Shown here: piece after piece, positions 2,550 to 18,352 of the stretch | How the letters are laid out: each line of letters starts with the position of its first letter | Numbering within the stretch: the first letter of the stretch is position 1 | Assembly (NCBI GenBank): GCA_903926205.1 | Contig: CAIYID010000002.1 | Location: 1-49,420 of the forward strand | Length of the DNA: 49,420 bases | Source of the DNA: an uncultured Bdellovibrionales bacterium | Lineage (GTDB): Bacteria > Bdellovibrionota > Bdellovibrionia > Bdellovibrionales > Bdellovibrionaceae | Direction: 5' to 3' | The notes under the pieces: model-generated | Database searches by the model: none | Seen by the model: the letters and a program-made list of their open reading frames with translations, nothing else | What the model was told of the DNA's origin: nothing | Position numbers and translations under genes: made by a program

Positions 2550-4021
2550 AGCGCGAAGCAGGAACTCATTGGCCCATTTCAATACTTAACGGTCTTTCGG
2601 CAATGGTCGCTTTGTTTTTACCAATGCTAATGAGTCGATATCTCGTTGCCGATGATATTGGAAGATACAAAATTCTATTTTTATATTTAATGACCGTTCC
2701 GGCTTTGTCGCTGACCGGTGGTATTGAAAATGGTCTGTATTTTTGGGCCGGCTTGGGCGAAGAAGGTAAATCAAAAGTTCGAAGCGGCTGGAGTTTAACA
2801 TTCGCTCACTCTTTGATTTTCTTTATCATAGTGATAGTCACCTTTCCCTGGTTACCTCAATGGTTTGGCTGGACAATGCGAGAATCATTGGCCTTCGCTG
2901 TGGCCAGTTTTTCTGTGGCACTGAGCACTTTTTATGAAGCATTATTGATAGCAAGAAATCAAATTTGGAAAGGTGCCATTTTTTCTTCTTCATTTGATAC
3001 TGTCAAAACAATGTCAATCCTTGCGGCTGTTCTCTGTTTTAAAACCGCAGAGTCCGCAGTATGGGCTTTTGCTGCGACATCTTTTTTGAAGATCGGAGTG
3101 ACTCTTTTTTTTGGCGCTAAAGATGGGTGGATACCGCGTTGGCCTGATTTTTCCTCTGCTCGTGATGTGATGAAATACTCTTTGCCGGTTTCTTTTTCAG
3201 GAATTTTTGATTTGCTTATGAATTATTCTGATCGGTTTTTGCTCTCAGTTATTATTACGCCTGCGCAATTTGCCATTTACACTTTTGGGTGTTTATCTCT
3301 ACCTCCCCTGCAAATCATTGAAAGATCGGTAAACAAAGTACTGATACCTAAATTGACTTTGGCTATTAAAAACAAAGATAGCGAAGAAGCCTGTCATCTT
3401 TATCGTGAGGCTTTAGAACAAATCATGATGATCTATATTCCAGCAGTGATCGGATTGTTTATTTTTGCAGAGCCGATCATTCATCTTTTGTTCACTGAAA
3501 AATACATAGGCGCGGCAAGCTTTTTGCGTATTTATTCGATCTGGTATTTATTTTCGGCCATTCCTTATGATGTAGCCGCTCGAGCCAGCGGTGATGGAAA
3601 ATGGATTCTTCGCACAAATATAATCATGGGAATATTCTCATTCTTATTATGCGGCTTATTGACTTGGCTTTGGGGAGCTTATGGTGCGTTGGCGTCTCTT
3701 ATTCTCTCTGTCGCGATTTTACGTATAAGAGGACTAGCGATGATGTTATTTCAGCTTTCGTGGACCTTTAAAAAAATGATCCCTTTCCGGTCCTTGTATT
3801 TTTTTCTTGTATTATCTTTGTCATTAGGGATTTTCAGTATTGCCGCCAAGGGAATGTTTAAAAACGATCTTTGGTGGTTTTTTATTTGCGGTGGAATTTT
3901 TGCGATTATTTACTTCATGGCCTTATTTTTCATTAAGAAGGAACTTTTCGGTTTAAATAAAAAAACAAAAAATAAAAATAATAACAACTTCGACGATAAT
4001 AATCAGGGGCTTGGGCGATGA
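2546..4021 (+). CDS. MOP-superfamily polysaccharide flippase (Wzx-like)
   Basis: 491 residues, almost wholly hydrophobic, with about 12-14 predicted membrane segments, ending in a Lys/Asn-rich cytoplasmic tail. This fits a polysaccharide (lipid-linked repeat unit) exporter of the MATE/Wzx superfamily. The start at 2546 is chosen over an in-frame ATG at 2480 because it forms an ATGA overlap with the deacetylase stop and has AGGA seven bases upstream, and because residues upstream of it are not hydrophobic. The gene is in turn ATGA-coupled to the GT4 gene. It would move an undecaprenyl-linked glycan across the inner membrane. A matching Wzy polymerase is not seen in the window. Confidence 0.85.
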   Translation: MKREAGTHWPISILNGLSAMVALFLPMLMSRYLVADDIGRYKILFLYLMTVPALSLTGGIENGLYFWAGLGEEGKSKVRSGWSLTFAHSLIFFIIVIVTFPWLPQWFGWTMRESLAFAVASFSVALSTFYEALLIARNQIWKGAIFSSSFDTVKTMSILAAVLCFKTAESAVWAFAATSFLKIGVTLFFGAKDGWIPRWPDFSSARDVMKYSLPVSFSGIFDLLMNYSDRFLLSVIITPAQFAIYTFGCLSLPPLQIIERSVNKVLIPKLTLAIKNKDSEEACHLYREALEQIMMIYIPAVIGLFIFAEPIIHLLFTEKYIGAASFLRIYSIWYLFSAIPYDVAARASGDGKWILRTNIIMGIFSFLLCGLLTWLWGAYGALASLILSVAILRIRGLAMMLFQLSWTFKKMIPFRSLYFFLVLSLSLGIFSIAAKGMFKNDLWWFFICGGIFAIIYFMALFFIKKELFGLNKKTKNKNNNNFDDNNQGLGR

Positions 4022-15383: not shown

Positions 15384-18080
15384 TTAGAGTCCGTTGGTCA
15401 TTTCGGCATAAACATTTCCGCCAATTGCCTTGAAAGTAAATAAAGTGTGCTTTGAAGCGATGCTAGTACCAAAGCCTGTTGTGGTTCTAAGAGGGAGCAA
15501 TGTTGCTCCTGCATCGCTATAGGCATTGAATAAGCAGGTCGTGGCTGAGGATCCTTGCACAACAAAAGTGTAAGTTCCGCCATCTTTTATGTTCCATAAA
15601 TAAAAAGTAGCACAATAGCTACTAGTGTATTGCAAGTTGCCTTTTGCGAAGTCAATTGTTGAAGTGCTATTTGAGATTGAAGCAGCATTTGAAATAGCAC
15701 CATTCACAGAAAGAGTGGTATTGGGGGAAACAGTTCCAATACCCACATTTCCAATTGTCGAAATGATCATCCTCGTTGCACCGGCCGAATTATCCCAAAT
15801 TTGAAGGGCTCCGCCTCCTCCGATGTTGCTAACGGTATTGCTGATGATAGACCAGGAGTGGTTTGCGACTGAATAGGGCGTTGAATCAAGTGTGATGGAA
15901 GCTCCGGCGGTACCACCCTGGCTTGATTGAACCACGAGTTGATTGCTCCAACTTCCAGAGTTAGCTGAAGTGGCATAAATGCTAAGAATTCCAGGGAGCG
16001 CTGTCGTTCCTATGCCAACTTTTCCCGCAAAATAATTTATATCTGAAGGACCTGCTTGGTAAAAAGCGTAAGCTTGAGGTGCTGCTGGAGCCTGCGGTTC
16101 AACGTAAACACCATAAATTTGAGTGAAATTGGCCCCAGAGGGGGATTTGATGAGAGCGCCATAACCATTTGTAATCGTGCCGCTGCTAGATGTGGACAAG
16201 CTTCCTTCCAGGCCGACGGCCGTTGTTATATTTGAACCATTTTGAACTGAGGCCATTCCTCGTACACCAATTCCCAACGAAATTGAGTTTGAATTCGAGG
16301 TGGAAGTTCCAATCTCTCCGGAGACTCCAATCGCTTGAGAGATGGCTTGATTCGTTATTTGAGTAAAGACGCCTCGGTTGGCAATAATGGTATTTGCCGA
16401 AGTCGTGCCTGCACCATAAGTCAGGTTTGAAATAAAACCGTCGTACTCAGCGCCATTGGCAGTGCTGATTGAACCAACTAGGGACATTGGAAATGGTAAG
16501 TCTTTTGAGACTATAGTTCTGAATGTGCCGACTCCTGCACTACTATCTGGCGCCGCGAAGAAGGTGTTTGCGGCTCTTGTAAGTGTTGCTGTGACTTGAG
16601 AATCTGTGATCGCAATATCTTGGCAACTCATTAGATCGCCCACAGAATTATAAGTGAGAGTCTGATTGCTCGTACAAGAATTGGCAAGCTGATTTGAACC
16701 GGTAATTGATGATCGCAAATCTGTAATAGCTATAAAGTTTGGGGCCCAAGCGGAGCCATTGTATCTCAAAACCTGACCGCTGGCAGTAGGAATAGTCGTA
16801 CTAACTGCCGTTCCTTGAATTTTTGCAACAGTCGGACTTGGGTAAGTGGCTGATAAGTCGCCTCCGGCGGCACCTGTCGGAACAGGATTTGCCCAAGAGA
16901 GCACCCCAAATCCATCAGTGTATAAAAATTGTCCAGAGGAGCCTGCAGTTGTTGGAAAAGTTAGCGTATAGCCAGCTCCAGTGTTGGTAGGACTTTGCAT
17001 CGCCACAAAGCCTGGCCCCGAACCCGCATGATCATAGAGATAAGTTTTCGTTCCTGAGAAGCTACCACTTGTTTGAATGTTTCCCGAAGTCAGAATCGCT
17101 GTGCCGCCGCCGATGGTGCCACTAGTAATGGCGCTACCATTTAAATAGGTGAGTTGTGAGCCATTTACTGCGGGTAATTTTGCGGCGCTATCCAATTGTA
17201 CGATTTGATTTACGCCGGTTCCTACATTGATATTCAAGGTTCCGCTATTAGTGATGGTGCCACCAGGCCCCGCTCCCACATTGAGTCCAGTGCCTGCAAA
17301 TACCGAAGTCACACCAGCTCCTGCAATTCCCAATGTCTGAGTTGCTGTTCCATTGTAATATTTAATCAAACCCGAATCGTACCAAATCTCACCAGCGGTT
17401 GGTGAAGTTGGATTGGTTGTCATGGGTAAGGGTGTGGTGCCATTGGCGGCATCTTTTTTATAGAGCGAACTTGTGCCTGCAAGTAAATTGGTGAGGATCG
17501 GATAATTGGTGGTAGAGAAAATATTTTCTACATTGAATTGAGATAAACTCGCGGGTGAATTTGTATTTACTTGTAAAAAATTATTGGCAGTCAGGCCCTG
17601 TAGATTTTCAGCATTAGCCGCTGTTGAAGCAAAAGGCACTGAACTGATAGTAACAGCTCCCATCGAAGTGCCGTTCACAATCACATTGACGAACCAACTA
17701 GCACTGGAGGAGGTTCCATTAAAAGACAGACCAGGACAAGTCGTTGCCATTCCAGCGACCGAACCAGAAGCCCCGATAATGGCTGAATTATTCGTATTGA
17801 AGAGATCTTTTAGTGTGTAACTTGAGTGAACGAAATTGCCAATGTTTGCGCCAAGCTGCACTGAAAAATCACCGGGAGTGTTAAAGGTGATGGTGTCAGC
17901 TTCTGAGTATAATTTACAAGTGTTTGATCCGTCAGAGCCATAGATTTCAAAAGTCATTGAAGTCGGAGTCGTCACAGGGCCATTAGAATTAGTGAGATAG
18001 CCATTAAAATTTAAATAACTTGGAGCCGCCAAGCTTATTTTCGAAATAAATAAAATAAAAATTAGAAATAAATAATTTAT
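15384..18080 (-). CDS. Secreted phage-tail-fibre-like surface adhesin, apparent AUA start
   Basis: About 898 residues, rich in Ser, Thr, Gly and Ala with almost no charge. In order: a signal peptide, a beta-rich head opening 'APSYLNFNGYLTN', glycine-rich repeats ('GTGLNVGAG', 'GGDLSATYPSPTV'), a collar with 'GKVGIGT' and 'GNVGIGT', and a C-terminal tip domain with two Cys and 'IKDGGTYTFVVQG'. This layout matches trimeric phage fibres and the mosaic host-recognition fibres described in Bdellovibrio (family knowledge). The only canonical start, TTG at 18032, falls inside the signal peptide. Reading upstream in frame restores a complete one beginning at an ATA at 18080, with AGGAG seven bases before it and an ATAA overlap with the lipoprotein stop. 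No S74 intramolecular chaperone motif was seen. Confidence 0.8.
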   Translation of the reverse strand: MNYLFLIFILFISKISLAAPSYLNFNGYLTNSNGPVTTPTSMTFEIYGSDGSNTCKLYSEADTITFNTPGDFSVQLGANIGNFVHSSYTLKDLFNTNNSAIIGASGSVAGMATTCPGLSFNGTSSSASWFVNVIVNGTSMGAVTISSVPFASTAANAENLQGLTANNFLQVNTNSPASLSQFNVENIFSTTNYPILTNLLAGTSSLYKKDAANGTTPLPMTTNPTSPTAGEIWYDSGLIKYYNGTATQTLGIAGAGVTSVFAGTGLNVGAGPGGTITNSGTLNINVGTGVNQIVQLDSAAKLPAVNGSQLTYLNGSAITSGTIGGGTAILTSGNIQTSGSFSGTKTYLYDHAGSGPGFVAMQSPTNTGAGYTLTFPTTAGSSGQFLYTDGFGVLSWANPVPTGAAGGDLSATYPSPTVAKIQGTAVSTTIPTASGQVLRYNGSAWAPNFIAITDLRSSITGSNQLANSCTSNQTLTYNSVGDLMSCQDIAITDSQVTATLTRAANTFFAAPDSSAGVGTFRTIVSKDLPFPMSLVGSISTANGAEYDGFISNLTYGAGTTSANTIIANRGVFTQITNQAISQAIGVSGEIGTSTSNSNSISLGIGVRGMASVQNGSNITTAVGLEGSLSTSSSGTITNGYGALIKSPSGANFTQIYGVYVEPQAPAAPQAYAFYQAGPSDINYFAGKVGIGTTALPGILSIYATSANSGSWSNQLVVQSSQGGTAGASITLDSTPYSVANHSWSIISNTVSNIGGGGALQIWDNSAGATRMIISTIGNVGIGTVSPNTTLSVNGAISNAASISNSTSTIDFAKGNLQYTSSYCATFYLWNIKDGGTYTFVVQGSSATTCLFNAYSDAGATLLPLRTTTGFGTSIASKHTLFTFKAIGGNVYAEMTNGL

Positions 18081-18352
18081 TTTACAACTCCTGCCATTAA
18101 AGAATAATTATTTGGATTATTACTTGTCGGATTGTAAATAACAGTTTGAAGAGGTTTTATTTGCGCCCGCAAAGAGTAATTGTTAGGATTATTTGTCGAT
18201 GGATTGAGAATGGCATTTCCTGATGATAATTGAAAGTTAGTCGGTGCCGATTTAGCATGAAAAAATGATTTTAAACCTGTCACCGTGACATTCGCATTCT
18301 GACAGGCGGTCGTAAAAAGAAGAAAATTAACCACAAGCAAAAGAGTTTTCAT
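18077..18352 (-). CDS. Small repeat-bearing lipoprotein upstream of the fibre gene
   Basis: 91 residues. The signal peptide ends in the lipobox 'LFTTAC' (Cys17). The mature part carries two near-identical segments, 'NPSTNNPNNYSLRAQ' and 'NPTSNNPNNYSLMAG', about 24 residues apart, the second being nearly the C-terminus. Its stop codon overlaps the proposed AUA start of the fibre gene by four bases, so the two are co-transcribed and probably translationally coupled. I infer it may help anchor or export the fibre at the cell surface, but the family is not one I recognise. Confidence 0.7.
   Translation of the reverse strand: MKTLLLVVNFLLFTTACQNANVTVTGLKSFFHAKSAPTNFQLSSGNAILNPSTNNPNNYSLRAQIKPLQTVIYNPTSNNPNNYSLMAGVVK
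18088..18092 (-). promoter_or_regulatory. Ribosome binding site placing the fibre start at ATA
   Basis: On the minus strand AGGAG is followed by seven bases and then ATA, the first codon of an otherwise perfect signal peptide. The site lies within the last codons of the lipoprotein gene. Confidence 0.65.

Follow-up and report, generated by a model that had tools for sequence, protein, structure and literature searches.

An ATA codon at the start position of a putative MAT-type fibre gene that overlaps a lipoprotein gene in an uncultured Bdellovibrionales bacterium

The lipoprotein-fibre locus

We analysed a stretch of 49,420 nucleotides (the window) from an uncultured Bdellovibrionales bacterium, in which a long gene for a predicted fibre follows a small lipoprotein gene. 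Both genes lie on the reverse strand, as do the features of their junction described here. The fibre gene (15384..18080) comprises 898 codons when read from an ATA triplet at 18078..18080. The lipoprotein gene (18077..18352) encodes 91 amino acids with the lipobox TTAC and ends in a TAA at 18077..18079, which forms with the ATA a four-nucleotide stop/start overlap, ATAA. An AGGAG Shine-Dalgarno sequence (18088..18092) lies within the final codons of the lipoprotein gene, separated from the ATA by a seven-base spacer. The original prediction had proposed this arrangement, and both the coordinates and the spacer were confirmed.

The fibre frame is limited upstream by an in-frame TAA at 18108..18110, ten codons before the ATA, and contains no ATG, GTG or TTG between this stop and a TTG at 18030..18032. 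This TTG, which lies within the signal peptide as had been noted, is the first canonical start in the frame. Translation from the ATA would provide the complete hydrophobic signal peptide of 18 residues that had also been predicted, (M)NYLFLIFILFISKISLA (18027..18080). Initiation at the TTG, which would leave 882 codons, deserves next to no credence even though the codon is canonical, as its Shine-Dalgarno pairing is +0.1 kcal/mol (that is, none) against -6.9 kcal/mol for the ATA and the whole signal peptide would be lost, though the compared homologs have one. The Shine-Dalgarno sequence of the ATA is ordinary, with stronger ones in 10 of the 31 window genes. The first eight residues of the signal peptide include no Lys or Arg; three homologs have a charged n-region.

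The NCBIfam model Bdello_MAT_N (NF053851) matched residues 8-172 of the fibre (17565..18059) over the full domain, with an E-value of 2.2e-14 and 53.5 bits, below the curated cut-off of 60; a paralog from the same genome scored 28.5 against this model. On the basis of this match, below the cut-off as it is, we provisionally assign the fibre to the MAT (mosaic adhesive trimer) type, which the original prediction had not named. The signal peptide would stand directly before the MAT N-terminal domain if the ATA is the start. A Pfam search of the fibre gave no confident match, a search against PDB sequences gave no match and no S74 SDxxxK motif was seen at the fibre end.

The genome shows no enrichment of AGGAG-N6..8-ATAA, with 65 sites compared with 112 for the reversed pattern, so the pattern carries no meaning by itself. 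We examined AUA usage in the genome at the sites of this pattern, and among about 60 inspected, only the window ATA overlaps a gene stop and opens a long frame without a nearby canonical start. Regarding the ATGA couplings that had been listed elsewhere in the window, those at 4018, 30086 and 37691 are four-nucleotide overlaps in the table of open reading frames, but at 2546 the overlap hinges on which start is chosen, as the ATGA exists and the ORF caller places the start of that gene at 2480.

Homologous pairs and the ancestral start

The same genome has a second lipoprotein-fibre pair on contig C3, and two more pairs occur in the congener G001, on C4 and C64. The fibre N-terminal domains of these pairs and of the window align from the signal peptide onward with 33-42 % identity, and their lipoproteins are homologous with 28-38 % identity. 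The junctions read GTTGTAAAATAAAT in the window, GTGGTAAAATGAGG in the C3 paralog, GTGGTGCGATGAGT in G001 C4 and GCGGTAAAATGAGA in G001 C64. The three other pairs have the ATG of an ATGA overlap exactly where the window has ATA, and the spacer between Shine-Dalgarno sequence and start is seven bases in all four. Because the paralog and the congener have ATG there with the same spacing, the alignments strongly support a fibre start at the ATA position, within what was once an ATGA overlap, and ATG is likely the ancestral state. The comparison of this codon in relatives, suggested with the original prediction, showed a homologous start position, but ATA itself was absent from them, and no close ortholog turned up.

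A further pair in the same genome, on C48, also has ATG in ATGA. The genome contains four matches to the MAT N-terminal domain. Its fourth fibre (L061 741-820, G000:C76) has an ATG just past the lipoprotein stop, without overlap (TGAGGAGTTATG).

Searched with the fibre N-terminal domain, 83 of the 141 genomes of the order gave matches, and the DNA upstream of 78 MAT fibre genes was read by scanning and by eye. The exact four-nucleotide overlap with a lipoprotein gene was present in 16 of them, 12 with ATG, three with GTG (one, L132, doubtful) and one, that of the window, with ATA. No relatives were found by fibre and lipoprotein alignment scans of genome contigs, and a junction scan of viral contigs gave no match. 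The neighbouring metallo-hydrolase gene had no match in G001, the one congener compared, which is about 54 % complete.

The survey also bears on a possible -1 frameshift at the A AAA TAA that closes the lipoprotein gene. Since an A stands before the AAA (Lys) codon, re-pairing could occur one base back, with reading then continuing in the fibre frame to give a lipoprotein-fibre fusion. We consider this very improbable. An A precedes AAA in only three of the 16 pairs, the last lipoprotein codon being mostly CGA, CAA, AGA, CAG or ATG, and a fusion would bury the signal peptide within the lipoprotein. Shine-Dalgarno sequences that stimulate -1 shifting usually sit farther from the slip site than the one found here. 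We therefore set aside both the frameshift, for its unconserved slip site, and the TTG start, for its lack of a Shine-Dalgarno sequence.

Partner lipoproteins

A small lipoprotein gene was read directly before 27 of the 78 MAT fibre genes by scan and by eye; a stricter automatic lipobox scan alone found one before 19 of the 78, compared with 3 of 43 long frames in the window. In genus g7, the fibres read mostly have no such gene ahead of them. BLASTP (E<0.01) joined 25 of the 27 partner lipoproteins in one group, leaving L136 and L140 outside, and no NCBIfam family covers the four that were tested. With pairs similar at E<1e-5 taken out, the C-terminal 45 residues of the 27 lipoproteins still had a mean score of 25.1, compared with 21.0 (sd 0.27) for shuffled sequences, which points to a common C-terminal two-strand motif, a matter of resemblance and not of function. 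The putative motif is seen in the window lipoprotein (18077-18352), L054, L064, L093, L069, L090, L139 and others. The window lipoprotein also has two near-copies, PSTNNPNNYSL and PTSNNPNNYSL, 24 residues apart (18098-18202), and the L139 partner (up to 236 aa) seems, by eye, to have an Ig-like domain before the C-terminal motif.

The surface element that binds the MAT N-terminal domain awaits identification (PMC10769870). The products of coupled genes frequently belong to a single complex (PMC10666635), which makes the small lipoprotein a plausible candidate surface anchor of MAT fibres.

Origin and possible use of the ATA codon

The original prediction had left a choice between genuine AUA initiation and a G-to-A change, real or erroneous, that weakened the start. 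The paralogs and relatives uphold the start position, and G-to-A is the simplest history, but an AUA start that is conserved was not found. We give somewhat better than even credence to a coupled pair in which a real and recent G-to-A change weakened the ATG, with AUA used at a reduced rate and the fibre scarce. A single G-to-A transition would have turned the ATG of the ATGA overlap into ATA; the same change would be silent for the lipoprotein gene, converting TGA to TAA and leaving the lipoprotein intact. Should the ATA be genuine, ribosomes arriving at the end of the lipoprotein gene or binding at the AGGAG would use initiator tRNA to start on AUA, though less often than on AUG; by analogy with Staphylococcus aureus, the rate may lie between a tenth and a third of that of AUG. 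Because of this reduced rate the fibre would be made in low amount, and the AUA would be a recent down-mutation and not an old regulatory device. The ordinary Shine-Dalgarno sequence, the uncharged n-region of the signal peptide and the lack of reported AUG-to-AUA switches elsewhere (see below) speak against this reading.

The main rival is an error of sequencing or consensus, under which the true sequence would be a normal ATGA overlap opening an unremarkable fibre gene. An error would fit the ATG or GTG at every homologous overlap, the apparently intact remainder of the fibre gene and the draft state of the assembly, which comprises 94 contigs. However, wrong substitutions in the consensus are rare where a draft assembly has good depth. 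We regard an error as possible but clearly the less probable account, and the recent weakening change as most likely real.

A real change could also have abolished the start and left a silent fibre, a fresh pseudogene. AUA is weak as a start (PMC13009471), and with four MAT N-terminal domain matches in the genome one copy could be dispensable. Such a loss is nevertheless unlikely, as no stop interrupts the 898 codons and both the Shine-Dalgarno sequence and the overlap are kept. The share of substitutions that create a stop is 3.4 %, so that the first stop is expected only after about 29 random substitutions, or about 1 % divergence, and given the intact frame, any loss of expression would have to be recent.

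The sequence gives no sign that AUA was selected to tune down the adhesin, as the Shine-Dalgarno sequence is not stronger than usual and the ATA is not kept in relatives. A long-standing AUA is further disfavoured by the lack of reported AUG-to-AUA switches: none was reported among 61,358 ancestral AUG starts in 36 genome triplets, a zero that is biased because annotation rarely allows AUA (PMC5622118). We consider unlikely the combined reading in which the lipoprotein anchors the fibre N-terminal domain in the membrane, the overlap fixes the ratio of the two, and AUA was selected as a reinitiation codon to keep the fibre scarce relative to its anchor.

Near-cognate initiation may not be foreign to this cell. 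In infC (L153 1132-1872, G000:C78) no ATG, GTG or TTG precedes the conserved core, and an ATT stands six bases after AGGAGG, which makes ATT, the classical near-cognate start of infC, its apparent start codon. Near-cognate initiation under the control of IF3 therefore probably exists here. The same reading of infC suggests that this IF3 discriminates against near-cognate codons, in which case the fibre would be weakly translated, perhaps helped by ribosomes coming from the lipoprotein gene.

Gene callers that bar ATA would start the fibre within its signal peptide, so that an exported adhesin would be misread as cytoplasmic. If the ATA is real, the junction offers a natural test of restart at AUA by a ribosome that has just terminated. 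The fibre gene itself belongs to a known kind. More useful is its pairing with a lipoprotein gene, which yields a testable candidate for the surface element by which predatory bacteria hold their MAT fibres.

Comparison with known systems

The pair has the geometry of ATGA termination-reinitiation pairs, with the same four-nucleotide overlap and an internal Shine-Dalgarno sequence, but ATAA in place of ATGA (PMC6728339). The available text of PMC6728339 does not deal with reinitiation at AUA, and AUA does not occur in that of the review PMC12548453.

AUA initiation is rare in bacteria, as the original prediction stated, yet already documented. According to the available text of PMC13009471, infC, ccpN and citZ of S. 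aureus have natural AUA starts, and in poor medium the AUA reporters of both ccpN and citZ reached about 10 % of the AUG output, while that of ccpN attained up to 30 % in rich medium. The window resembles these genes in having AUA after a Shine-Dalgarno sequence as a putative weak natural start, and it may, like citZ, whose AUA is confined to one lineage, be a local case. In S. aureus, however, initiation was measured, whereas in the window it is deduced from the sequence; that text stresses extended Shine-Dalgarno sequences, whereas the one here is ordinary; and it describes no stop/start overlap, whereas the window has one.

The closest known counterparts of the fibre are the MAT fibres of Bdellovibrio bacteriovorus (PMC10769870). 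The window fibre differs from these in its NF053851 score below the curated cut-off and in the presumably coupled lipoprotein gene that precedes it, the word 'lipoprotein' being absent from the main text of that paper, but it shares with them the predicted build of a signal peptide, a MAT N-terminal domain and a long repetitive fibre.
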